Of a stretch of DNA of 44,853 nt, positions 6,574 to 44,853 are shown piece by piece. The translations under genes were made by a program, and so were the position numbers. Within the stretch, counting starts at the first letter, position 1, and every line of letters begins with the position of its first letter. Location of the stretch: positions 1 through 44,853 of the forward strand of contig JAJDZZ010000082.1 of assembly GCA_022824405.1 (NCBI GenBank), written 5' to 3'. The notes under the pieces are model-generated. The model did no database searches. It had not been told where the DNA came from and was given only the letters and a program-made list of their open reading frames with translations. The stretch is from Opitutales bacterium. Lineage in GTDB: Bacteria; Verrucomicrobiota; Verrucomicrobiia; Opitutales; UBA2995.

Positions 6574-8457
6574 CTAATTTTTAATTGGCGCCCTTTGGAG
6601 GCGGGTCCGTAATTGGATGATGAGTCCGGACCCAATGGCGAAGACCGCCTCTCCGACACAGAAATAATAAAGGTTGGTGGCAACTCCGTCGTCGAAGCCG
6701 TAACTGTGCAGCCCCACCTGCAACAGGTTGACACCAAACCAGGCCAGGGCCACGGAGATGGGTGTCAATGCGAGGGCCACGGAAAAACCGAGTTCCTTGA
6801 GCCGGCCGGCCAAGCGCCCGTGAATGACGATGAGCAACCAGAGAACGATTAAGAGGGCGCCGTTTTCCTTGGGGTCCCATCCCCAAAAACGCCCCCAGGA
6901 TTGGTCGCCCCAAATTCCTCCCAGAATGGTTCCGAAGGTGGTGAAAAAGACGGCCACCAGGCAAATTCCGTAGGATACCTTGAAAGCCTCTCTGGCCCAG
7001 CGTCTGCGCGCCGGGAAAATCAACCGCAGCAGGAGATACACGTGGGCCACCAGCCCCGCCGTCAAGGCAACCCCGTAGCCGATGGTGATGGTCAAGACGT
7101 GGGTGCCGAGCCAGAAGTTTGAATTGAGTACGGCCACCAGCATCTTCATGGTATCGCCTTCGGCCGAGTAGCTGAACCCGATGAAGTGCAGAGCGGTTCC
7201 GGCCACCGAACCCACGAGCAGCCCCAGGGTGTCGTGACGCACCGCTTCGAGGATGATCGATAACAAGACCAGGACCCAGCCCACAAAGACGATCGACTCG
7301 TAGAGGGTGGACACGGGCGGACGGCCCATGATATAAATTCTGAACAACAACCCGACCAGGTGGAGGGCAAAACCGACGATCAGACTGGCAAAGGAGAGAC
7401 GACCCACCCATTTGCTGGTAAAGACGTAGCTTACCAACAGCAACAGGAAGGCCAGGATGTAGAACACGATGCTGTTTCGGAAAAAGTTGGCTTTGTTATA
7501 GAACAACTCACCCTTCAATTTTACATTGGCATTAACAGCATCCACCAACGGGTCCACTTCCTGGGAAACCTGGGCCAGTCCGTCGGCATAAAAGGCGGCA
7601 ACAATGGTTTCCAATTCCCGCAACCGGTCCAACTGCCACGGGGTCAGTTGACGTCCGTCCAATAATTCCCAGGGCGCAAACCAGGTCGCCTCCTCCTGCT
7701 CGCCTTCCGGCATGACAATTTTCAGGATCTGGGAACTTCGATCGGCCAGTTTGACGTTCAACTGTTGAACCAGGTCGATCAAGGCGCTCTCCTTAGGGGA
7801 AATGGCATCCCCTTCCTGGCGGCCCCGCAGGCTCTCCAATTCGGTGGCCATCGCCCCGCGCACCTCCAGAAACTGCCGGTAGGTATAGCCCTTCCCCACT
7901 TCAAAACCAATGGCTTCGGCCAACTCGGGGTTGGATACGCTAATGTCCGGTATCAGCCCCGTTAGAGACCGGCTCAAGGCAAGGTAGCGCAACGCTTTCA
8001 GGTAAAGGGTGACCAATTGCCCTTCCGCCCGCGTCCGTTCCCCCTCCCCTTTTTCCACCAGTTTGTTGAGGGATTCCTGGCGCTCCCTTATGGCTTGGCT
8101 CAGTTCTGCAAACGAATAACGGGACTCCGGGTCCAAACCCAGGCCCAATCCCAGGATGGCTTCCTTTTCCCGCACCTTGAAAACCTTTCGCTGGTAGGCG
8201 GCCTGCGGGGCTATCATCAATTCCAACAACCAGTCGATGGCCTTTTGCCGGTCGATGGTCGATTTGGAATGGTAGAGTAAAAGTTGGGACCGGGCAAAGG
8301 TGTCCAGAGGTTTGAGCCTTCCCTGATCCTGGACGATCAGTTTCTGGAAGGCGCCGGCCCGCACCGGGGATTCGTAGGCTTCCCCTCCCAGAACCGCCCC
8401 CCAACCCATGAGGAAAACCAGGGAGATAAACAGGCGTTGAATGGAGAGCGGTTTCAT
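6574..8457 (-). CDS. ccsA: Cytochrome c biogenesis protein CcsA/ResC-like (system II)
   Basis: Membrane half of the system II haem-export and cytochrome c assembly complex. The 627-residue protein has an N-terminal membrane segment, a long periplasmic region (about 30-320), then about eight membrane segments with the tryptophan-rich haem-handling motif GDQSWGRFWGWDPKEN near residue 515 and conserved histidines in the helices around it. This is the long form in which a soluble domain precedes the CcsA part. The start is the ATG at 8457, which overlaps the ResB stop as ATGA, implying translational coupling. The final residues APIKN and the stop are encoded by the GGCGCCAATTA repeat, so the 3' end has been altered by a repeat. 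Confidence 0.92.
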   Translation of the reverse strand: MKPLSIQRLFISLVFLMGWGAVLGGEAYESPVRAGAFQKLIVQDQGRLKPLDTFARSQLLLYHSKSTIDRQKAIDWLLELMIAPQAAYQRKVFKVREKEAILGLGLGLDPESRYSFAELSQAIRERQESLNKLVEKGEGERTRAEGQLVTLYLKALRYLALSRSLTGLIPDISVSNPELAEAIGFEVGKGYTYRQFLEVRGAMATELESLRGRQEGDAISPKESALIDLVQQLNVKLADRSSQILKIVMPEGEQEEATWFAPWELLDGRQLTPWQLDRLRELETIVAAFYADGLAQVSQEVDPLVDAVNANVKLKGELFYNKANFFRNSIVFYILAFLLLLVSYVFTSKWVGRLSFASLIVGFALHLVGLLFRIYIMGRPPVSTLYESIVFVGWVLVLLSIILEAVRHDTLGLLVGSVAGTALHFIGFSYSAEGDTMKMLVAVLNSNFWLGTHVLTITIGYGVALTAGLVAHVYLLLRLIFPARRRWAREAFKVSYGICLVAVFFTTFGTILGGIWGDQSWGRFWGWDPKENGALLIVLWLLIVIHGRLAGRLKELGFSVALALTPISVALAWFGVNLLQVGLHSYGFDDGVATNLYYFCVGEAVFAIGSGLIIQLRTRLQRAPIKN

Positions 8458-23852: not shown

Positions 23853-24313
23853 GATACGGGCTTGGCTCATAAGAGGACTGAAGCGTATGATTGTTCCCGA
23901 CATAATGTCACGACAACTCGGGAAAATCCATTAAATGGCTGGCCTGAGGCGCGCCGGAGCGCGCCAATCAGGAATTAAAAGGCTGAAAAGGGAGAGGTTG
24001 AAAGAGGAAGGAAGAAGGGGCCGGGATCAATCATGATCGTGATCGAAAGAAAGGGTACTTTGGAAATGATTTGTGGAACCCCGTTGGGGTTCGTTATTTA
24101 TTACCCATTCCTACCCAGCGTGCGCTACGCGACACTGGGCTTTGGAGTTTAACGCCGTTGGCGTAGAAGAAAGGGGCGCCCAAGGGCGCATCTTAGCGAT
24201 CTTTGCGAGCTTTGCGAGAGGCAAAGGCGCGCTGAGGTGGGCCAATCAGGAATGAGGAATGTTTCGATTTGGGAGTTGACGGGGGAGGAGGCATTAATTT
24301 TCAACATGAGGAC
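23853..24313. repeat. Repeat region between the TlpA-like gene and the oxidoreductase gene
   Basis: About 460 bp without a gene. It contains a GGCGCGC-CGGA-GCGCGCC hairpin with AATCAGGAATT (23947-23975), an AGGCTGAAAAGGG word, an inverted GATCGTGATCG word (24033-24043), the full three-hairpin element (24072-24170), GGCGCCC, GCGATCTTTGCGAG and a TCAGGAATGAGG word. The ORF through 24073-24255 is a translation of the three-hairpin element. Confidence 0.7.
24072..24170 (+). repeat. Three-hairpin repeat element, copy 1
   Basis: Three successive hairpins: GGAACCCCGTTGGGGTTC (24075-24092), CCCAGCGTGCGCTACGCGAC-ACTGGG (24114-24139, imperfect), and AACGCCGTTGGCGT (24151-24164). A reverse-orientation copy lies at 38143-38245, and a copy lacking the first hairpin at 17665-17733. 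I recall similar hairpin words in unrelated bacterial genomes, but this is from memory and was not checked. Confidence 0.75.
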
Positions 24314-25195
24314 ATGCCAAAAATTAACATGAGCAAAGAGACCATAGCATTTATCGGAACCGGGGTCATGGGTCAAAGCATGGCCGGGCACTTACTCAAA
24401 GCGGGGCATCCGCTACAGGTTTACAATCGCACCAAATCCAAAGCGGAAGGTTTATTGGAGGGCGGCGCCATCTGGTTTGACACACCGGGACAAGCCGCGT
24501 CCGGAGCAGACGTTATCATAACCATCGTCGGTTTCCCCAAGGACGTGGAGGCAGTCTACTTCGGAGCGGAAGGGATCCTGAACCGAGCCCCAAAGGGTTC
24601 CCTGGCGATCGATATGACAACCTCCAGCCCGATCCTGGCAAAACGAATCGCGGCGGCGGCGTCCGAAAAAGGGATGGGTTCCCTGGATGCCCCCGTTTCG
24701 GGCGGCGATCTGGGCGCGCGAAACGCCAAGCTCTCCATCATGGTGGGAGGAGAACGGGAAGACTTCGATCGGGCCATGCCCATCTTCCAAATCATGGGAA
24801 AGAATATCGTGCTACAGGGGCCGGCTGGCTCCGGGCAGTACACCAAGATGTGCAATCAGATCGCCATCGCCAGCGGGATGATAGGGATTTCGGAAGCCAT
24901 GGCCTATGCCGGGAAGGCCGGGTTGGATCCGTTTACGGTGCTGAAGAGCATAGAACCCGGCGCCGCCGGCAGTTGGTCCTTATCCAACTTGGCGCCTCGC
25001 GCCCTCAAAGGCGACTTCGACCCGGGGTTTTACGTAAAACACTTCATCAAGGACATGCGAATCGCCATTGAATCGGCCGAAGAAATGGGGCTCGACCTGC
25101 CCGGCCTGAAACTGACCAAAACGCTTTACGGGAAACTGGCGGCGCAGGGAGGAGAGGATTTCGGAACCCAGGCCCTGCTGAAGGTTTACCGGTAA
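24314..25195 (+). CDS. NAD(P)-dependent beta-hydroxyacid dehydrogenase
   Basis: A 293-residue member of the 3-hydroxyisobutyrate / 2-hydroxy-3-oxopropionate (tartronate semialdehyde) reductase family. The Rossmann start is IAFIGTGVMGQSMAGHLLKAGH and NRTKSKAEGL follows. The family signature appears in DAPVSGGDLGARNAKLSIMVGG, and the catalytic lysine is expected in GQYTKMCNQIA near residue 175. LKGDFDPGFYVKHFIKDMRIA is the usual dimer-helix region. NRTKSK favours NADP. The exact substrate is not decided by the sequence. The start is the ATG at 24314, preceded by GAGGA; the ATG at 24329 is an alternative. A GGCGCGC-CGGG-GCGCGCC hairpin starts at the stop codon. Confidence 0.92.
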   Translation: MPKINMSKETIAFIGTGVMGQSMAGHLLKAGHPLQVYNRTKSKAEGLLEGGAIWFDTPGQAASGADVIITIVGFPKDVEAVYFGAEGILNRAPKGSLAIDMTTSSPILAKRIAAAASEKGMGSLDAPVSGGDLGARNAKLSIMVGGEREDFDRAMPIFQIMGKNIVLQGPAGSGQYTKMCNQIAIASGMIGISEAMAYAGKAGLDPFTVLKSIEPGAAGSWSLSNLAPRALKGDFDPGFYVKHFIKDMRIAIESAEEMGLDLPGLKLTKTLYGKLAAQGGEDFGTQALLKVYR

Positions 25196-29096: not shown

Positions 29097-32000
29097 TCAG
29101 TCGGTCATGGGATGTTCGGCCAGAATTTCATCCACCATGTAAAAGGTATTCCTGTCCTTGATCTCCTCCCGGATGCGAGCCACCCGGTCGGGCCTGATGA
29201 CCTTGGCCAACCCTTTGGGATTCCCGAATTGGATGCGCGAATAGGTAAGCACTCCGGCAATTTCCTCATCGGTAAGCAAATGCTCAAACCCGGTCATGGG
29301 GGGAACACCGGTAGCGGGATCGTAAATTTTTCCACCTACTTCAATCGGACCCCAAAGGCCTTTGAGGGTAAGTTTGATCAACCGGTCATCGTCCCCATTT
29401 ATCCATTCATTATTGGTAAGGGGCGGATAAATGCCTTCGGTCGTCCCCCTGCCTCTCTCCCCGTGGCAGGTGACGCAATGAGCATCGCGGTGGTAAACTT
29501 CGGCGCCGATACGGAGGAGTTCCAGATCGGCCGCGGGAAGGTTGGTCTGGGGAATTCTTGGGGGAGCGTCGCGCTTTTTGTCGTACAACGCGAGGTCTCC
29601 CGCCAAGTAGGAATGAAGCGTGGGGTGTAGGGTCCGATCCAATTGCTCCAGGTCTTGCAAGGCGCGAATTTCGCCATCCAGGGTGAGCAAGACCCCTTCC
29701 AGGGCCGGACCCATCCACCGGGTCAGCGGGTGCTTCAATGCTTCAATGACGATCCTGGCCCCGGCCTGGTCGGCCATCCAGGAAGCGGCTACGGCTGCTT
29801 CCAGGCGGACGCGCGGATGGGAATCGGCCGCGGCTTTCAGGAAAAGGTTCAGGTAATGAGGGATTTGCCGGTAGGCATAACGCATGACCCGGACTGCGGC
29901 GGCCCGGCTTTGATAACTCTCCGCCTCCAGACAGCGCTTGAGCAAATCCAAATCGACTCGATTTTGACCCCAGGTGACCCAGAGGGCTTCGAGCAGATGA
30001 CGCTGGTAGAGGGGATCGTTTTTTTCGAGCTTCCCGGCCCAATCCTTCACCGCTTTCAGGACCTCATCGGCATCGCGGCCCCGGAGTTCGCGCCGGGTGC
30101 GATAACGGGTGCGGTATTCGTGCGCCTTCAGGTTCTCCAAGAGGACGGGGATGGGAGCGCCGGCGACGTTGGCCGGTTCGACCGGAGGCCGGGATGGGTA
30201 GGTGACGCGGTAGATGCGCCCGTGATCGTGGTCGCGGTTGGGATCGCGGGCGGAATGTTGCATGTGACCGATCAGGGGGTTATGCCAATCAATGAGGTAG
30301 AGGGAACCGTCGGGGGCAAATTCGAGGTCGACGGGGCGAAAATTGGGATCGGTGGAATAAACCAGATCCTGTCGCAATCGACCGGTAAAGCCCGCCCCGT
30401 CCTCCACCAGCGTATGCTGCTTGGTTCCGAGAAACCCGATGGTATTGTTGATGAGAAAATCTCCCTGAACCTCATCGGGGAAATGCCGGGAATAGATAAA
30501 CTCCGATCCCGAGGTGGGGCGGACCCGATGGGTGGTAAACTGGTCCACCTTGGCGATTTCAAAACCGTGGGGCACTTTGGCGGAAAGGGGAAGCGACCAC
30601 CAGTTTTGCCCACCGGAGGCATCGGATAAAAAGTTCTGCCCCCATTGGTCGAAGGCCATTCCCCAGGGATTGGATACATCGGTCTGCATGAACCGCTCCA
30701 ACCGCCAGGACTTCGGATCGAACCGCCATACTCCGCCATCGGTGCAGCGCTCGGGACCGTATGGCGTTTCCACTTGGGAATGCAAAAACCGGCCTTCGCT
30801 CATGTAGAAGGCGCCGGAGGCATCGGCGGTAAAGGCCGAAATGGCGTGGTGGGTATCGTGAGAGTCGAATCCATGCAGAAGTATTTCCGTGCGGTCCGCC
30901 CTGTCGTCCCCGTCATCGTCGACCAACAAGACGAGGTTTGGCTCCTGTGCGACGTAGACCCCTTCAGGGGCCAGTTCAAATCCGATGGGCAAATGTAATT
31001 CATCGGCAAAAACGGTCTGCCTGTCCGCCCGGTTATCCCCGTCCGTATCCTCAAAAATGAGCAACTTGTCGTTGGGCCTGGCGTCACCCGGTCGGTAGTG
31101 GGGATAAGACGGTATGACGGCCACCCAGAGGCGCCCCTCGTTGTCAAAGGACATCTGGACGGGATTTTTCAGGTCGGGAAATTCCGATTCGGAAGCAAAC
31201 AGATCGATGGCGTACCCCTCGGAGAGAACAAACCTGTCCAAGGCGCGATCCACGTCCAGAAATTCAATCGGTTGGTTGAAGTTGGTTTCCACCGGGGTGA
31301 GGGGCCGTGTGCGCTGATCGTTCACGGCGAGGTCCCGCGTCTTACCCTGAGCCACGTGGTGAATTCGGGCATCCCGCAGATCGGTCATCTGGCGAATTTT
31401 CTCTATTTCCTCGGGGTAGTTGACGTTTCCATAAGGCTTGTAACGTCGACCGTATACGTGCACGCCGTTCAACATGCGGTAGTCGTTAAACCAGAACCAA
31501 TTCTTTTCCTGGACGGCCCGATTGACCATATTATGGGTGGCCTTGGATTGTATCTGAGATCGGCCGAACAAGGCATTGGTGAGGAGTGGGGCAAGCTTGC
31601 GGTATCCCGTATCGGTCAAGGCGAACCCATTAATGGTGAGGGGCTCCTCATTTTGGTCGTAGAGCCGCATGGTGGGCTGGAATAAATCGACAAACCCCAC
31701 GTTTCGGCGGAGGGCAACGCGCCTCATGGCATCGGTGTAGGCGGCCAGCCGCTCGTTCTCCTTCACCCCGTCGGGAAGGGGTTGTCGGTCGGACAGGTCT
31801 TCGAAGGCGATGGGAGAAATCAAGACCAGCCGGGGCGCGGTTTCGCCGTTGTATTGTTGCGATAAGGTATGCCGGACGAAGGCATCGAGTTCCCCTGAAA
31901 AATCTTCCAACCGGTCCAGTCCGCCGAAGGATTCATTGTAGCCGAAAAAGGCCAGGATGATATCGGCTTTCAAGTTGGTGAGCCATTGGTCGGGAGTGGG

Positions 32001-32324
32001 AAAATGGCCGATTCCCAAATGGGTTTGGTACTCGGGACGATAGGCCTCGGCGCCCGGGAAGGCCCACTGGCTCTTGCGCGATGGATGGGGCCGGAAGCCC
32101 GGGGTATCCCCGGGGCGGCAGATATTGCGGATGGTGAGGTTTGCATCCGGATAGAGACGGTGCAAACGGGTTTCAAAATGGGGGAAGTTGAGCATGCGTT
32201 CGCCCAATCCGTTGCCCAGAAGAACGATGCGGTCATTTTCCCTCACTCCCAAAGGAAGCGCCTCGGCCCGTCCCACCGAAAGCAGCGCGAGGCATGCGAG
32301 TAGTATAAGAAGATATTTGCCCAT
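29097..32324 (-). CDS. PVC-type fusion: SGNH-like domain, beta-propeller, HEAT repeats and cytochrome c
   Basis: A 1075-residue exported multidomain protein of the PVC membrane-bound dehydrogenase family (TIGR02604). After the signal peptide (about 1-20) an SGNH/GDSL-like domain spans about 25-260. Its first block reads VLLGNGLGE, without the nucleophilic serine, so it is probably not a hydrolase; FFGYNES corresponds to block III. A propeller domain follows (about 350-720, VDRALDRFVLSEGYAIDLFASE onward, with DTDGDNRADR and DDDGDDRADR calcium-like loops), then helical repeats (about 740-890). The C-terminal cytochrome c has Cys950, Cys953 and His954, with Met1010 as the likely second haem ligand. 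The substrate is unknown, and redox of a sugar or similar compound is a guess. It is 32 bp after ThuA. Confidence 0.9.
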   Translation of the reverse strand: MGKYLLILLACLALLSVGRAEALPLGVRENDRIVLLGNGLGERMLNFPHFETRLHRLYPDANLTIRNICRPGDTPGFRPHPSRKSQWAFPGAEAYRPEYQTHLGIGHFPTPDQWLTNLKADIILAFFGYNESFGGLDRLEDFSGELDAFVRHTLSQQYNGETAPRLVLISPIAFEDLSDRQPLPDGVKENERLAAYTDAMRRVALRRNVGFVDLFQPTMRLYDQNEEPLTINGFALTDTGYRKLAPLLTNALFGRSQIQSKATHNMVNRAVQEKNWFWFNDYRMLNGVHVYGRRYKPYGNVNYPEEIEKIRQMTDLRDARIHHVAQGKTRDLAVNDQRTRPLTPVETNFNQPIEFLDVDRALDRFVLSEGYAIDLFASESEFPDLKNPVQMSFDNEGRLWVAVIPSYPHYRPGDARPNDKLLIFEDTDGDNRADRQTVFADELHLPIGFELAPEGVYVAQEPNLVLLVDDDGDDRADRTEILLHGFDSHDTHHAISAFTADASGAFYMSEGRFLHSQVETPYGPERCTDGGVWRFDPKSWRLERFMQTDVSNPWGMAFDQWGQNFLSDASGGQNWWSLPLSAKVPHGFEIAKVDQFTTHRVRPTSGSEFIYSRHFPDEVQGDFLINNTIGFLGTKQHTLVEDGAGFTGRLRQDLVYSTDPNFRPVDLEFAPDGSLYLIDWHNPLIGHMQHSARDPNRDHDHGRIYRVTYPSRPPVEPANVAGAPIPVLLENLKAHEYRTRYRTRRELRGRDADEVLKAVKDWAGKLEKNDPLYQRHLLEALWVTWGQNRVDLDLLKRCLEAESYQSRAAAVRVMRYAYRQIPHYLNLFLKAAADSHPRVRLEAAVAASWMADQAGARIVIEALKHPLTRWMGPALEGVLLTLDGEIRALQDLEQLDRTLHPTLHSYLAGDLALYDKKRDAPPRIPQTNLPAADLELLRIGAEVYHRDAHCVTCHGERGRGTTEGIYPPLTNNEWINGDDDRLIKLTLKGLWGPIEVGGKIYDPATGVPPMTGFEHLLTDEEIAGVLTYSRIQFGNPKGLAKVIRPDRVARIREEIKDRNTFYMVDEILAEHPMTD

Positions 32325-32356: not shown

Positions 32357-33436
32357 TTAGTTTGAAAAGCTTTCGACGCTTACTTTTTGCGCCTCCCAGT
32401 AACCCTTCTCTTTAAAACCGTAGGCGGTCGGCTTGAAGCTCCCGACGATGTCGACGTTGGTACCCCCTTCGGGGACGGGAATGCCCAGGCACCAGTAAAC
32501 CCCATTCACGATCATGCGACGGGTTCCGGCCTCCTCCAGATCGGTCGAAGATCCCATGGTGGTAGCGAATACTTTGCCCTTTTTGCCGCCAGGCAATCGA
32601 TAGCTCTTGGTCCAGGCCAGCGGCATCATGGGATCGTTTTTGTGAAATCCCGGGTGTTTCCCATACTTGGGCGCCCTTTCGTAAGGTCCCGGGCCAATGG
32701 GCGGGTCGCCCTTGTTCATTCCGGCCAGGACCTGGCCCAATACTACGGCCTTGGAATCGCCGGGCTGGGGCAATTTTACCCCGTAGACATCGGTGGGACC
32801 CCAAATTTCGCCCTCCCCTATTCCATTGGTAATCTCATGATTTCCCACGGGAATGCCTCTGGTGCTTTCCTTCTTGTGCCAGCCATGGTGGCTTATCCAG
32901 GTGGTGCCCAGGACCAACTCCCCGAATCCATTATGCCAGGCGGATTTTTCGCCGGAATAGTTGAAACTGTAGTGAGCCCACTTCGAATCGGCCGGGAAGC
33001 GAAAGGCGTGGGTAGCGGTTCGTAGGCCTACAACCGGCCGACCGGAGGCGAGATAGTCGTCGATTTCCCGCATCTGCTCGTCCGGCAAAGCGCGAAAGCG
33101 GGTTGCGATGATCATCAGGTCGGCATCCCGCAAGGCCTCCAATCCGGGTATATTTTCCTGGAAGTCGGGATCGATAAATCCGGGAGTATCCGGCTGCTGG
33201 GCAAAAAGAACGGTGCATTTGAACCCATGGCGCTTGGATAAAATCCTGCCCAGTTGAGTCAGAGCTTCCTCGGACCGGTATTCCTCGTCGCCGCTGATCA
33301 ATACCACCTGTTTTCCCTGGCCGGGACCGTTCATCCCTTCGAAGGCCAACCAACGAAGCGGTTCGGAACCGCTATCCCCGAAACAACAAAGCATGAAAAA
33401 TATCAGGCTGACTCCTTGGTATAAGACAAATCTCAT
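32357..33436 (-). CDS. ThuA-domain protein
   Basis: A 359-residue exported protein with a ThuA-like, glutamine-amidotransferase-type fold (about 40-330). Seen: VVLISGDEEYRSEEAL, DLMIIATRFRALPDEQMREIDDYLASGRPVVGLRTATHAF, FGELVLGTTWISHHGWH and GSSTDLEEAGTRRMIVNGVYWCLG. ThuA proteins act in trehalose or sugar use, and related ones serve as 3-keto-sugar enzymes or binding proteins; the exact activity here is not known. It is the first gene of a probable four-gene operon with the PVC fusion, PQQ-like propeller and DUF5916 genes. Confidence 0.88.
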   Translation of the reverse strand: MRFVLYQGVSLIFFMLCCFGDSGSEPLRWLAFEGMNGPGQGKQVVLISGDEEYRSEEALTQLGRILSKRHGFKCTVLFAQQPDTPGFIDPDFQENIPGLEALRDADLMIIATRFRALPDEQMREIDDYLASGRPVVGLRTATHAFRFPADSKWAHYSFNYSGEKSAWHNGFGELVLGTTWISHHGWHKKESTRGIPVGNHEITNGIGEGEIWGPTDVYGVKLPQPGDSKAVVLGQVLAGMNKGDPPIGPGPYERAPKYGKHPGFHKNDPMMPLAWTKSYRLPGGKKGKVFATTMGSSTDLEEAGTRRMIVNGVYWCLGIPVPEGGTNVDIVGSFKPTAYGFKEKGYWEAQKVSVESFSN

Positions 33437-33591: not shown

Positions 33592-34158
33592 TCAAAACGA
33601 AATCAAAGCGCGCCGCAGCCGCCTCACCCGCTCGGCCAAGGTTTTCTGAAAGGTCGGCACGGGCTCCTCTCCCCTCTCCACTTTCCAGATGAAAACGCTC
33701 GGGCCCTTGCCCTGGAAAATCAAAGGCAATCGCTCTTCGAATTCTTCCTCGTCTTCGACGGTATAAACCTGCTCGATCCCCGCTCCCCGGGCCATGGCTG
33801 CAAAATCGACCGAACCGACTCCGGGGACCTCCTGGTTGCCCGTCACTTCGTAGGTACCGTTTTCGATGATCACCATGACGTAGTTTCGGCACGGCCTCTG
33901 GGCAATGGTGACCAGAGTGCCCAAAGACATGAGCATGCTCCCATCGCCGTTCAAAACGATCACCCGGCGACCGGGTTGCGCTAGGGCGATCCCCAGGCCG
34001 AAGTCGGCGGCATGGCCCATGGCGCTATCCACCGAAGCGAAGTCCAGGGCGGTATCGGACAAATTTTCCCAAGGCTTGGCCGTGCCCATGCAGGTAATGA
34101 TGATTTCATCGGTTCGGCCGGCGGCCAATTTTTCCAGACAGGTGTATTTATCGAGCAT
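33592..34158 (-). CDS. ThDP-binding decarboxylase subunit, ComE-like (beta)
   Basis: A 188-residue subunit carrying the thiamine-diphosphate pyrophosphate site: GDGS at 71-74 and Asn100, the GDG-x26-N motif. MGHAADFGLGIALAQPGRR and IENGTYEVTGNQEVPG are typical of sulfopyruvate and phosphonopyruvate decarboxylases split in two. Together with the adjacent alpha subunit it would form a complete ThDP enzyme that removes CO2 from a 2-oxo acid. The substrate is not fixed by the sequence. The ATG at 34158 lies 2 bp after the alpha-subunit stop, so they are co-translated. Confidence 0.85.
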   Translation of the reverse strand: MLDKYTCLEKLAAGRTDEIIITCMGTAKPWENLSDTALDFASVDSAMGHAADFGLGIALAQPGRRVIVLNGDGSMLMSLGTLVTIAQRPCRNYVMVIIENGTYEVTGNQEVPGVGSVDFAAMARGAGIEQVYTVEDEEEFEERLPLIFQGKGPSVFIWKVERGEEPVPTFQKTLAERVRRLRRALISF

Positions 34159-34160
34159 GG

Positions 34161-34658
34161 TCAGACCGTGGTATCGGCCAGAATTGCGGCGGCCGGCTTG
34201 GAAGTGGTGTCGGCCTTGGCGAAGGCGTCATGGAGCTTGGCGAGGTCCCGGTCGTCGCGGATTATCCCGTAGGGAATATGCCATGCATCCAGGGTGGGTT
34301 CGGTAAACAAGGCGGCTGAATCCGTGCGCTCCCTTTCCCCTTTGAGCGACTTGAAACCCCGATAACAGAGAAGGATCACCTGGGGAATCCGCATATTCCA
34401 GGAGGTCCCCCGCAACGCGTCCCCCGCCTCCAGGAGACCCGTATTCTGAATGAGCACCACCGCCTTTTTCCCCCCGATGTGAAGCCCCGCAGCAATGGCA
34501 AAAGCCTCCCCCTCCCGGCAGACCTTGATCACTTCCAAATCGGGGTCTTCCTCCAAACCTCGAAAAAACACGCGGGAAAGGTTATCGGGCAACCCCACTA
34601 CGTGGGTGATACCCTGCTCTTTCAAGGCCTGGTGAATCTTGGAGGCTGTCAGCTTCAA
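34161..34658 (-). CDS. ThDP-binding decarboxylase subunit, ComD-like (alpha)
   Basis: A 165-residue subunit with the pyrimidine-binding half of a ThDP enzyme. Glu49 in KVCREGEAFAIAAGLH sits in the E-x2-A-x3-A-x-G pattern and is the expected cofactor-activating glutamate. VVGLPDNLSRVF and IQNTGLLEAGDALRGTS resemble ComD of sulfopyruvate decarboxylase. The start is TTG at 34658, overlapping the stop of the LarA-like gene (TTGA), so translation is probably coupled. A coenzyme M role is unlikely in this organism; sulfolactate or another hydroxyacid route is more plausible and is an inference. Confidence 0.85.
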   Translation of the reverse strand: MKLTASKIHQALKEQGITHVVGLPDNLSRVFFRGLEEDPDLEVIKVCREGEAFAIAAGLHIGGKKAVVLIQNTGLLEAGDALRGTSWNMRIPQVILLCYRGFKSLKGERERTDSAALFTEPTLDAWHIPYGIIRDDRDLAKLHDAFAKADTTSKPAAAILADTTV

Positions 34659-35938
34659 ACCGTTACCGGCTCCAAGGCTTTGACTTCGGGCAACATGCCC
34701 TGCCGGTCCAATGGCAGGGGGCGCGGTCCGATTACGATTTCCAAATCATCCCTCTCCCGGGCTTCATCCAAATACATGGCCGAACATTCCAGCTCCGCGA
34801 CGTCCAGGGTATTGCGGATCCACATCAGCCTGGCTTGGGCGGGAGGGGTCAATCCGATCAAAGGCAATGCCGCGTCCAAAACCTCGCGGTCGGTTTCATA
34901 ATGAATCGGAATCATGGCGGCGGCGGCGCCTCCCCCGGTGAGACTATTGATGCGGGTTATTTCGACGTCCATTTGCTCGATGGCACGGGTCAGGGCAAAT
35001 TCCACCATGCCCATTCCCACGGCGTTTCCATGCGTTTCATAGGTCAGGCTGCGCACACAAATATTCCCGATTACGGGAGTTTCACCGGGACCGGCCGAAT
35101 GCCAGCCGAATTTGCGTCCGATCACATTGGTATCCATTCCCGTTCCACTGATGTTTTTACCCATCTCGTCCACCAGGAGGATGTCGCCTGCATCGAAGGG
35201 CAAGCGGGGCAGCCAGCGCTTGGCCAGGACCAGCAACTCTTTTTCCCGCTCTTCCAACTCCTCCGGAGCAACCGCCAACAGCTTGGCTGTTTCGTCATAG
35301 GAATTTTCCACTATGCCCAACCCGGCGACGATATTGCATTTGGCGAGCACTTCGCGTCCCACACTGCGGATGATTTGTCCGAAATTGTAATCCAGAATGG
35401 CCCGGTGGTATACCCTGGCGCCGTTGTGTTTACCCAGCCCGATCAGCATCATTTTCATCAAACCGCTTTCGATGTCCCCCACGAAATTGGTGTGCGGTTT
35501 TACGCGGCCCACCACACAAACGTGATCCGCTTCCCAGGCAAATTTATCGAAGTGGACGGGGAAACCTTCCGCCGCCTGGCAAACGATGACGGTTTCCATA
35601 CTGGCCTTGATGGGGCACCCGCAATACTCTTCCGTCACGCCGTAAGACGCCAAAATCTCCCGCTGCCCGGCGGCGGTGCCGCCTCCGTGACTACCCATGG
35701 CCGGGACGATGAAGGGCGCGGCCCCAAGCCCTTTGAAGTGATCCACTACGGCTTTGATGATGGTGGCGATATGGGCGATCCCACGGCTGCCCGCGGTTAT
35801 TGCCACCGTCTGACCCGGTTGTACTCTTTTATGAAGAGAGAGCCTCCGCAGTTGGGCCTCCACCTCGGCCGGTATGTCCTCAACCAAAGGGCGCTCGAAG
35901 GTTTGGCGTACGCGAAAAATGTGGGGATATTCAGACAT
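34655..35938 (-). CDS. LarA-like protein (lactate racemase domain / DUF2088)
   Basis: A 427-residue protein of the lactate racemase superfamily. The N-terminal region has AGSRGIAHIATIIKAV and then MGSHGGGTAAGQ (His84). GRVKPHTNFVGDIESGLMKMM follows, where His149 and Lys162 match the positions of the histidine and lysine that hold the nickel pincer cofactor in LarA. Known relatives racemise or epimerise 2-hydroxyacids. No larB, larC or larE gene for making the cofactor is in the window. The start is the ATG at 35938. It is the first gene of an operon with the two ThDP-decarboxylase subunits, so it may act on the hydroxyacid that leads to their 2-oxo acid substrate. Confidence 0.82.
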   Translation of the reverse strand: MSEYPHIFRVRQTFERPLVEDIPAEVEAQLRRLSLHKRVQPGQTVAITAGSRGIAHIATIIKAVVDHFKGLGAAPFIVPAMGSHGGGTAAGQREILASYGVTEEYCGCPIKASMETVIVCQAAEGFPVHFDKFAWEADHVCVVGRVKPHTNFVGDIESGLMKMMLIGLGKHNGARVYHRAILDYNFGQIIRSVGREVLAKCNIVAGLGIVENSYDETAKLLAVAPEELEEREKELLVLAKRWLPRLPFDAGDILLVDEMGKNISGTGMDTNVIGRKFGWHSAGPGETPVIGNICVRSLTYETHGNAVGMGMVEFALTRAIEQMDVEITRINSLTGGGAAAAMIPIHYETDREVLDAALPLIGLTPPAQARLMWIRNTLDVAELECSAMYLDEARERDDLEIVIGPRPLPLDRQGMLPEVKALEPVTV

Positions 35939-36090: not shown

Positions 36091-37329
36091 CTACGCATCG
36101 GGCTTCAAACGCAGGGCGAGGACGGTCGTATCGTCCTGGGGAAAATCTCCCCCGCAATACCGGGCGAGGTGGTCCCTCACCCCTTGCACGATTTCCTCGA
36201 TGGGGTTTTTGGCATTCCTCCCGAATGTCTCAACCAGCCCCTCCGTCCCCAATTCATCGCCTTGGGGATTGCGAGACTCTATGACGCCGTCGGTCATGAA
36301 GAGCAGACAATCCCCTTTATCGAGGTCGAGTTTCAGGGTCTCTATTGACTGGCAAATCCCCAAACTCACCACATTTGCACTCGGCACGGTGACGACTTCA
36401 ACGGTGGATTTCGCCTCCCTGAACCATAAGACCGGCGGCAACGCGGCATTGGCCAAGGTGAGGGTGGGATGTTCATCGTTGCTCAGATCCAACGCGCCGG
36501 CCAAGGCGGCGACAAATCCAAAGGGAATGAGGCCTTTCAGGTGCTGGTCCAGAGAAATCAAGGCTTTATCGGGATGGGCAAATTTGGAGGGCATGATAAA
36601 ATCTGCCATGTGTTTGACCAGAATGGTGAAAATACCCGCCGACACGCCATGGCCACTGACGTCTCCCAACAAAAAAGATAGTTGATGGGGTGAAACGAGG
36701 GGAAAAGTGACGACGTCACCACCCACGTCCCCCATGCTCAAACTCATAACGGCAATCTCGACGGCGGGATGTTCCGGCAAAGGTCCGGGAATAAGAATCT
36801 GCTGCACGCGCCCGGCGTTCTGAAAGTCCATTTCCAAGGTTTCGTTCTTCTGGCGGAGTTGTTCCCGGCTTTCTTCCAAGGCCCTTTGAGCTTCCACCTG
36901 GGCGGTAATATCGCGCGTGATCCCCATGAGCCCGGCCGGTTTCCCCGATCCCAGATTAATCGGCACCTTGGTCGATGTAACCCAGGTCACCCTGCCATCC
37001 GGCCAGGTTTCCTTTTCGGTTTTGTTTATCAGCTTCTCATTATTTTTCATGACCTTCTGTTCATCTTCGAAGGCCTCGCGGGCGTGCTCCTCGGAGAAAA
37101 AATCGAAATCGGTTTTGCCAACCAGTTCCTCGGAGGACTTCAACCCGAATTTGGCGGGCACGGCATCGCTCACCCTGATAAACCGACTCTTCCGATCCTT
37201 GAAGTATATCTGGTCCTGAGTCTGGTGCAATACGGCATCGAAAAGCACCGAAGCCGAAGCCTTGAAAAGAACGGAATCTTCTCTAACGGAAGCGCTCATG
37301 TTGGGAGAAAATAATTCCCCAGGGATCAT
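36091..37329 (-). CDS. PAS domain-containing PP2C-type (RsbU/SpoIIE) phosphatase
   Basis: A 412-residue signalling protein. A PAS domain (about 30-145) shows IYFKDRKSRFIRVSDAVPAKFG, LVGKTDFDFFSEEHA and WVTSTKVPINLGSGKPAGLMGITRDIT. A coiled-coil linker (about 145-180) precedes a SpoIIE/RsbU phosphatase domain (about 185-410) with metal-binding aspartates in LLGDVSGHGVSAG, LFMTDGVIES and QDDTTVLAL. Such proteins dephosphorylate anti-sigma-factor antagonists in partner-switching systems. No anti-sigma or antagonist gene is next to it, so the partner is elsewhere. No membrane segment is seen. The start is uncertain (ATG at 37329 or 37299). Confidence 0.88.
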   Translation of the reverse strand: MIPGELFSPNMSASVREDSVLFKASASVLFDAVLHQTQDQIYFKDRKSRFIRVSDAVPAKFGLKSSEELVGKTDFDFFSEEHAREAFEDEQKVMKNNEKLINKTEKETWPDGRVTWVTSTKVPINLGSGKPAGLMGITRDITAQVEAQRALEESREQLRQKNETLEMDFQNAGRVQQILIPGPLPEHPAVEIAVMSLSMGDVGGDVVTFPLVSPHQLSFLLGDVSGHGVSAGIFTILVKHMADFIMPSKFAHPDKALISLDQHLKGLIPFGFVAALAGALDLSNDEHPTLTLANAALPPVLWFREAKSTVEVVTVPSANVVSLGICQSIETLKLDLDKGDCLLFMTDGVIESRNPQGDELGTEGLVETFGRNAKNPIEEIVQGVRDHLARYCGGDFPQDDTTVLALRLKPDA

Positions 37330-37555
37330 TGTCCATCCACCAATGCAAAAATCTTCCACCGGCGATTCTCCACCTTAAACGCGGAAGAAGGCGCCATCGG
37401 CGCCTCTTAGCCTTCTTGGCGTGCTTTGCGAGAGTCAATTTCCGGATGCTGGGTTATAATCCATGGTTCGTCTTTCTCCCCATTCCCCATTCCTCATTCC
37501 TAATTCCTAATTCTTAATTGGCGCCCCCGGCGCCTCTGTGCCCTCTCTTAATTCA
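37330..37555. repeat. Repeats between the phosphatase and haem-binding genes
   Basis: GGCGCC-ATC-GGCGCC (37390-37404), TTGGCGTGCTTTGCGAGAGTC (split by a CTT), CCTAATTC units and a GGCGCC-CCC-GGCGCC hairpin (37519-37533). The last hairpin lies about 20 bp beyond the haem-binding gene's stop in its direction of reading. Confidence 0.6.
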
Positions 37556-43797: not shown

Positions 43798-44766
43798 TCA
43801 GGAGAAAATTCCTTTTCTCAAATCGCGCATCACCATCAACCCCGAATCCTTCAGGCCCAGCATGGGCCGCGCCCCCGAAGTCCGACGTTTCCCAAATAGA
43901 CCGCGATGCGTCTCGAATATCCCGTTCACGTAATCCTTCGAGCCGAGAACCATGCCATCGGTAAAATAACGTACCCGCAGCCTCAACACCTGTCCCAGCG
44001 GCAAGGTTCCATCAGCTTCCAATACCTTTCTGACCGCCTCGCGGTCCATCGCTTTCTGGCCTTCCCGCGATGTCGTCGCTCCCATCAGGAACAGAATCTT
44101 GCGATACTCCGACAAGGCGGCCTTCCCAGCCTTCATGGCAAGCGCACGACACAGCCCACTTCGCGCTTCGATGTTCCCGGCCACCGCCTCGGAGTAGCCG
44201 CAGTAACGATAGTCCTTGGGATCCTCCACCAGGCTCGCCCGCACCGGGTTCAAGTCTATGTAAGCGGCCACCGCACCCAAACAACTCGCCGTATCCTCGA
44301 TCAGCACGCTCTTGAACCGCTCCGCCCACAAGGTCCCGTAACGCCGGTGTGTACGGTTATACCAGATGCTGAAGCGTTGCTTCAACTCTTTCATATACAA
44401 CGATATATCCCCCATCCGCGCCAGGAGCCTCTCCCGTTCCGCCTGCGCTTGATCCCCTCCCTTTTTAAGGATGCCCTCCAAGGTTTCCACCCGCCCCTTT
44501 TGCCGCCCGTACAATTCGCAAAACCGGGCCAATAATTCCGTGTCATCGACTTCCTGATTTTCCGGCACCCGCACCAGGACGTGGAAGTGGTTGGTCATGA
44601 TGCAATAGGTCAGAATTTCCACCCCGCAGAAACGGGCCATGTACCACATCTGCTTGCGCAACACTTCCTTAGCCCGATTATCCAACAGCATCGCGCCACC
44701 CACCACGCGCGTCACGCAGTGATACACCGCACTTTGCCCCTTCACCTTCAACCTGGACGTTCTCAT
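43798..44766 (-). CDS. REP-associated tyrosine transposase (RAYT, Y1/HUH)
   Basis: A 322-residue single-strand DNA transposase-like protein of the IS200/RAYT group. The HUH motif is His60-Phe-His62 in LTYCIMTNHFHVLV, the start is QSAVYHCVTRVVGG, and the third block is YMKELKQRFSIWYNRTHRRYGTLWAERFKS, which holds the expected catalytic tyrosine (Tyr of WYN is a candidate). AAYIDLNPVRASLVEDPKDYRYCGYSE is a family landmark. In this family the protein cuts and joins at REP hairpins. GTAG REPs occur at 41166 and 42253. The start is taken at 44766, and a longer in-frame start at 44835 is possible. It lacks terminal inverted repeats, as is usual for RAYTs. Confidence 0.93.
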   Translation of the reverse strand: MRTSRLKVKGQSAVYHCVTRVVGGAMLLDNRAKEVLRKQMWYMARFCGVEILTYCIMTNHFHVLVRVPENQEVDDTELLARFCELYGRQKGRVETLEGILKKGGDQAQAERERLLARMGDISLYMKELKQRFSIWYNRTHRRYGTLWAERFKSVLIEDTASCLGAVAAYIDLNPVRASLVEDPKDYRYCGYSEAVAGNIEARSGLCRALAMKAGKAALSEYRKILFLMGATTSREGQKAMDREAVRKVLEADGTLPLGQVLRLRVRYFTDGMVLGSKDYVNGIFETHRGLFGKRRTSGARPMLGLKDSGLMVMRDLRKGIFS

Positions 44767-44853
44767 ACCCCCCACCCTGCCCATTCCTAATCCCCTGTCA
44801 ACAAATTTTAGCCTGTCCCTTTTAATCTCCCCCATGGGTGTCCACCTTTGATC

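Follow-up and report, generated by a model that had tools for sequence, protein, structure and literature searches.

The window analysed in this study, a stretch of 44,853 nucleotides from an Opitutales bacterium (contig JAJDZZ010000082.1 of assembly GCA_022824405.1; host genome 3.39 Mb, 96% complete), carries between positions 33592 and 35938 of its minus strand three genes in the order LarA homologue, alpha subunit and beta subunit of a putative thiamine diphosphate (ThDP) decarboxylase. The LarA homologue (34655-35938, minus strand; 427 amino acids) was assigned to group 22 of the nickel-pincer-nucleotide (NPN) isomerases on the basis of the model NF052515, conserved residues and a fold model. 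The alpha subunit (34161-34658, minus strand; 165 amino acids), a PYR domain recognized by PF02776 and by alignments, has the glutamate of REGEA and the motif NTGLLEAGDALRG, and the beta subunit (33592-34158, minus strand; 188 amino acids), a PP domain placed by PF02775 and by a tree, has the sequence GDGS...ENGTYEVTGNQ. The Pfam scores of the three proteins, 29.2 bits for Lar_N, 36.4 for TPP_enzyme_N and 76.9 for TPP_enzyme_C, were all above their cut-offs. The stop codon of the LarA-type gene and the TTG start codon of the alpha gene overlap in the four bases TTGA (34658-34655, minus strand), and a gap of 2 bp (34160-34159) separates alpha from beta, as an earlier note on this DNA had described; the word "fused" in its title was too strong, since the genes overlap and the proteins are separate. 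The closest named relative of the window is a metagenome-assembled genome (MAG) of an "Opitutia bacterium" (locus L013), the second genome of the genus, in which the LarA-type gene is broken by a frameshift and the TTGA overlap is found again at positions 6629-6632, so that the overlap is no sequencing accident.

The LarA homologue matched the group 22 model over its whole length with 501.7 bits (cut-off 400). Residues R52, H84, H149, K162 and H178 were invariant in the 36 aligned rows, and were also kept in five of five distant plasmid-borne relatives. By homology, R52, K162 and H178 would be the NPN contacts corresponding to R75, K184 and H200 of LarA, and H84 and H149 the catalytic histidine pair corresponding to H108 and H174; these counterparts were assigned from motif and spacing, not from residue-level superposition. 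The roles of the five LarA residues are those given in the main texts of PMC11770544 and PMC7583248, and the spacing of 16 between the lysine and the following histidine is the same as in LarA, Mar2 and GntE2 according to the residue numbers in the main text of the latter. The AlphaFold2 model of the protein (pLDDT, the predicted local distance difference test, 88.5) gave Z scores of 18.6-20.2 in the fold comparison with twelve LarA-family entries (LarA, Mar2 and GntE), the next fold reaching 6.1. Searches of PDB sequences with the protein and with its alignment profile retrieved no LarA entry, and such entries were recovered through the fold comparison only. Genes for larE, a larB-like protein and larC are clustered on another contig of the host genome (contig C14, locus L102), with scores above the cut-offs for LarE (281.8 against 150), for the AIRC-domain LarB-like protein (50.9 against 30) and for LarC (380.5 against 22.1).

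On the basis of the group 22 match, the invariant residues, the LarA fold and the presence of larEBC in the genome, the protein is judged, at the level of sequence, to have a nickel site. The possibility that it has no such site is contradicted at that level, and its assignment by family as a nickel-pincer-type 2-hydroxy-acid isomerase is supported, in line with the racemase-type protein that had been proposed. To our knowledge, no substrate has been established for group 22. The words "group 22" are absent from the main texts of PMC7583248 and PMC11770544, the supplements being outside the scope of this search. The fold is shared with the GntE-type gluconate 2-epimerases and the malate racemase Mar2 (4NAR, Z 18.9; 6D6Z, Z 20.2), from which the protein differs by an identity of 11-18% and by Thr150-Asn151 in place of Glu-Val/Ser. 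The GntE-type enzymes are a plausible model for an epimerization of sugar acids by the LarA homologue.

The top NCBIfam matches of both decarboxylase subunits were the sulfopyruvate decarboxylase models, in both cases under the threshold: 78.6 bits for alpha against TIGR03845 (cut-off 147.95) and 119.7 bits for beta against TIGR03846 (cut-off 221.5). With TIGR03297 (phosphonopyruvate decarboxylase) the scores were 59.5 and 96.6 bits (cut-off 312.5), a comparison in which the split pair is disfavoured because the model represents a fused protein. As a control we used the pair of a roseobacter operon that also includes a hisD-type gene, a TRAP transporter and a hydroxy-acid oxidase. This pair, which we take to be true ComDE because of the likeness to operons of the 2,3-dihydroxypropane-1-sulfonate (DHPS) type, obtained 147.6 bits for alpha, at the line, and 244.5 for beta, which passes. 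RhiEF (PDB 9IZ3) was the top PDB sequence match of both subunits (E 1.9e-14 and 1.6e-16).

At the domain level, the split PYR and PP domains, with the REGEA glutamate and GDGS...EN conserved in the alignments, correspond to a heteromeric ThDP decarboxylase; in such enzymes this glutamate is catalytic and GDG...N is the ThDP motif. The pair shares with ComDE the two small subunits, the PYR and PP domains, the gene order and the ThDP motifs, and differs from it by the scores and by the alpha motif, whose subfamily form is E(S/A)GDxxR and which stands in place of NTAIGVTINTL in the control ComD. Phosphonopyruvate-type relatives have SGxGNxxN (GNxxN) at this position, as in the rows of the fused Ppd type (L086 and L087), which branch apart. 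The partner alpha was of the form (E/D)(S/A/C)GD(A/S)xR for 33 of the 54 beta rows in the tree, and 32 of these 33, together with five betas for which no alpha was found, grouped apart from ComDE and from the fused types with a support of 94/80, just under the usual 95/80; the other row, from Bradyrhizobium (L106), was placed outside this branch on a very long branch. Judged by motif and tree position, the alpha-beta pair belongs to a separate, unnamed subfamily of putative ThDP decarboxylases. The ComDE-like decarboxylase of the earlier note thus stood as regards the split plan, common to ComDE and RhiEF, and did not as regards the family, the sulfopyruvate and phosphonopyruvate cut-offs not being reached and GNxxN not being present.

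This result bears on the substrate that had been suggested, sulfolactate, in a route in which a sulfolactate (or phosphonolactate) racemase would feed a ComDE-type sulfopyruvate/phosphonopyruvate decarboxylase. The top matches and the two-subunit plan are in favour of such a route, but alpha and beta lie far under both cut-offs, whereas the beta of the DHPS-type operon passes, and the alpha motif and the separate branch also argue against it. No Xsc above the cut-off was found in the host genome (best 231.9 bits, cut-off 676.4), and no sulfonate genes were seen among the flanking open reading frames (ORFs) examined, SuyAB, SlcC and ComC not having been searched for. In addition, the known racemization of sulfolactate proceeds by two dehydrogenases, SlcC and ComC, according to PMC12421959. 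Sulfolactate was rejected as the leading reading on account of the scores, the alpha motif, the tree branch, the lack of an Xsc above its cut-off and the passing control beta, and we consider this route very unlikely. If pairs of this kind were annotated by their best match, as decarboxylases of sulfopyruvate or phosphonopyruvate, the annotation would mislead.

Subfamily betas with no alpha found alongside were located in L169 (8886-9473, minus strand), L170 (4472-5056), L171 (3333-3917, minus strand) and L173 (9031-9585). In L169, L170 and L171 the ORF directly upstream has about 410 amino acids and a Tat-like signal; in L173 another ORF, of secreted type, is in this place. In 22 planctomycete alpha-beta loci the recurrent neighbours were alpha (20), an upstream protein of unknown function (11) and a xylose-isomerase-like TIM barrel protein (7), from which no pathway could be deduced. 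The upstream protein of these 11 loci is conserved and encoded on the same strand as alpha; the copy tested (L174, 7350-8393) had no Pfam match.

The joint presence of both enzymes was examined in two phyla. Among 387 Verrucomicrobiota genomes drawn evenly, LarA homologues with at least 60% identity were present in two and betas with at least 45% identity in two, these being the same genomes, the host (G000) and G349. Group-22-like proteins are common in planctomycetes, with LarA homologues in 70 of 392 genomes (E ≤ 1e-60), and subfamily pairs were detected in five genomes, all inside the 70 (p 1.6e-4 by the hypergeometric test, and 9e-4 when the centre genome of the draw, which had been chosen for its LarA homologue, is left out; kinship among genomes is ignored in these values). 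The beta count in this draw is a lower bound, as up to eight candidates per genome were scored. Of its ten beta-positive genomes, four carry non-subfamily betas (L202, L203, L205 and L206) and G705 (L204) was not motif-checked; one of these five genomes (G671) has a LarA homologue. When 80 of the 392 genomes were rechecked with all candidates scored, beta was found (E ≤ 1e-20) in two of the 33 with a LarA homologue and in none of the 47 without it, in which there were six weak matches (L244-L249, E 1.6e-19 to 1.7e-16) of unchecked motif. Beta was also present (E ≤ 1e-15) in 30 of the 50 genomes with the closest LarA homologues, accompanied by an E(S/A)GD-type alpha in 21, by no alpha found in five and by other types in four. 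Twenty of those 21 alphas were read directly, and that of G394 was assigned from L132 of G388, with an identical beta match. This proportion was not used as a rate, because the genomes had been selected for similarity and cluster in a few lineages. The decarboxylase tends to accompany the isomerase, whereas the isomerase usually occurs in the absence of the decarboxylase. This co-occurrence supports, beyond mere adjacency, the association of both enzymes that the earlier note had proposed.

With respect to physical linkage, alpha-beta was found at two of the 80 closest LarA-homologue loci: L013, with the operon, and L002, at a distance of about 8 kb. In the latter, an 11.7-kb contig of a sister genus, a single strand encodes the LarA homologue, a galactonate-dehydratase-like enolase protein, alpha and beta, interspersed with other genes. 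Within the window's family (eight genomes), beta was present in seven and the LarA homologue in all eight. The overlapping operon itself was found only in the two genomes of the window's genus, so that the pairing is nearly absent from other genomes, which comes close to an outcome that had been named as refuting the proposal.

The chief rival explanation is that of chance or loose neighbours, a group 22 isomerase and a ThDP decarboxylase with separate jobs, in which the operon of one genus would reflect shared regulation only. Three observations are consistent with it and weigh against a common route: alpha-beta was near the LarA homologue at none of the 77 loci outside the window's family within the fetched flanks, whose length varies (80 loci minus L002, L003 and L013); the pair is mostly unlinked even inside the family, as in G389, where the genes lie at 1.14 Mb and 1.99 Mb; and 31 of the 33 rechecked planctomycete genomes with a LarA homologue had no beta at E ≤ 1e-15. 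The presence of beta in just two of the 33 indicates that the LarA homologue usually works without the decarboxylase. Two findings speak against this explanation, which we regard as rather unlikely: the two genomes of the genus both retain the four-base overlap, and the subfamily and group 22 tend to occur together in two phyla, genome kinship being again ignored.

The informative neighbours of the LarA homologue and of alpha-beta point to sugar acids. In G349 the strand that encodes the LarA homologue also carries an L-rhamnose isomerase gene (674 bits, cut-off 572) and an XdhC-type gene, and a zinc alcohol dehydrogenase gene overlaps alpha; enolase-type and SDR genes are on the LarA-homologue strand in G391. 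The galactonate-dehydratase-like protein of L002 scored 281.5 bits (cut-off 311). A UxuA-type gene is near alpha-beta in three of the five sister-genus loci read (L131, L132 and L133 of L130-L134), with araBAD also in L131. The distant plasmid relatives of the LarA homologue (about 40-44% identity) are beside OtnK/PdxA and lactate-oxidation genes, beside MR/MLE with a TTT transporter and UxaA, beside TRAP with KDPGal aldolase, or beside MR/MLE with ALDH. A sixth distant relative, from Haladaptatus (L108), has no clear sugar-acid gene directly adjoining it, but at a distance of 3-6 kb there are genes for a class II aldolase, an FGGY kinase and a 2-hydroxyacid dehydrogenase. In three gammaproteobacterial loci, 2-hydroxyacid dehydrogenase, SDR, DUF1989 and hydantoinase genes are near the LarA homologue. 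No conserved neighbours worth claiming were obtained for the planctomycete LarA homologues, the commonest cluster being present in 16 of the 73 clustered loci (of 80 in total; no ORF was called in L010, L022, L027, L042, L043, L053 and L074, ORF calling being crude in GC-rich DNA).

Taking these data together, the explanation that we favour, tentatively and at slightly less than an even chance, is that the LarA homologue and alpha-beta are two enzymes of one catabolic route, a C2 epimerase and a 2-oxo-acid decarboxylase for a sugar acid; we infer the shared pathway, the sugar-acid substrate and a dehydratase step. The LarA homologue with its nickel-pincer cofactor would act on a 2-hydroxy acid, for which a sugar acid of the aldonate type is the likeliest candidate, and would invert it at C2 by taking the hydride off this carbon and returning it on the opposite face, if the mechanism follows that of LarA. 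A dehydratase of the enolase or UxuA type, or an unlinked dehydrogenase, would supply the 2-oxo acid, from which alpha-beta, a heteromeric ThDP enzyme to judge from its domains and motifs, would remove CO2 to yield an aldehyde. Enolase- and UxuA-type dehydratases convert 2,3-dihydroxy acids into 2-oxo-3-deoxy acids without redox chemistry. Since a dehydratase can make an oxo acid from a hydroxy acid, this step is a possible answer to the lack of an adjoining dehydrogenase that the earlier note had pointed out. That lack was borne out: on one side of the operon is the gene for a ThuA-type protein (32357-33436), on the other that for a PAS/SpoIIE phosphatase (36091-37359), and the nearest dehydrogenase-like ORF found, on the plus strand (24269-25195), is 8.4 kb off.

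The same lack would agree with a redox-neutral pair, in which the ThDP enzyme would receive the nickel-bound 2-oxo acid and the aldehyde would take back the stored hydride, no dehydrogenase being needed; LarA-type enzymes do form a 2-oxo acid intermediate during turnover, according to the main text of PMC11770544. However, both catalytic histidines are kept, as in plain racemization, and linkage of the genes is lacking in almost every other genome, an arrangement that speaks against a dedicated complex; we find this pairing hardly credible. An action of the LarA homologue on lactate or a lactate-like acid from the breakdown of deoxyhexoses (rhamnose, fucose), with the decarboxylase acting elsewhere, is also improbable: the rhamnose isomerase of G349 would fit it, as would the genes for lactate oxidation of the LUD/LutB type that lie close to the distant relatives from Rubrobacter and Haloferax, but the catalytic histidine is followed by threonine and a variable residue, not by the Phe-Phe of lactate racemases described in the main text of PMC11770544.

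Besides the sparse linkage, several other features weigh against the sugar-acid route. At the spacing of LarA Asp72, three residues before R52, there is Ala49 (A, V or C across the 36 rows), and no counterpart of LarA Lys298 could be placed; the replacement of the first and the unplaced second suggest that the active site may depart from that of LarA. As these genomes are rich in sugar genes, sugar-related neighbours are cheap evidence, and several neighbouring dehydratase-like proteins have, by eye, Tat- or lipoprotein-like N-terminal signals and may be exported. On Bradyrhizobium plasmids (L106) an E(S/A)GD-type pair is found amid amidase, aldehyde-dehydrogenase and ABC-transporter genes, and the subfamily may thus be broader than sugar acids.

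A wider claim is more doubtful, namely that Opitutia, Planctomycetota and relatives have an undescribed decarboxylative sugar-acid route in which a group 22 epimerase would set C2 of an aldonate, a dehydratase would form the 2-oxo-3-deoxy acid and the E(S/A)GDxxR ThDP subfamily would decarboxylate this acid to a shortened deoxy-aldehyde; we think it unlikely as a whole. That such a route would be undescribed is plausible. In the literature searched, which did not extend to subscription journals or to supplements (among them the group table of PMC7583248), no paper was seen to connect LarA homologues with ThDP decarboxylases. Many groups of the LarA superfamily are without a known substrate, and an operon partner and an accompanying decarboxylase subfamily narrow the choice of candidates to hydroxy acids that give a decarboxylatable oxo acid, with which a direct test becomes possible.

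Some additional observations were made around these loci. In the gammaproteobacterial loci L008, L009 and L011 (about 1.8-15 kb) the group 22 gene is part of the same conserved cluster, whose other members are Rieske-like, D-2-hydroxyacid dehydrogenase, NAD-epimerase, SDR, MFS, DUF1989 and hydantoinase-like genes, and their genomes (G399, G400 and G402) have ThDP betas of another type elsewhere. In the window, the ORF at 24269-25195 (plus strand) is 2-hydroxy-3-oxopropionate reductase-like (256.4 bits, cut-off 340.75; 159.1 with the threonate dehydrogenase model). Downstream of beta on the minus strand, the ThuA-type gene (32357-33436) is followed by one for a protein of 1075 amino acids with GDSL, DUF7133, HEAT and cytochrome-c regions (29097-32324), a gene order repeated in L013. 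Finally, the ORFs at 43798-44853 of the window (minus strand) and 488-1495 of L002 (plus strand), the second directly upstream of the L002 LarA homologue, have a near-identical N-terminal stretch and resemble a REP-type transposase.

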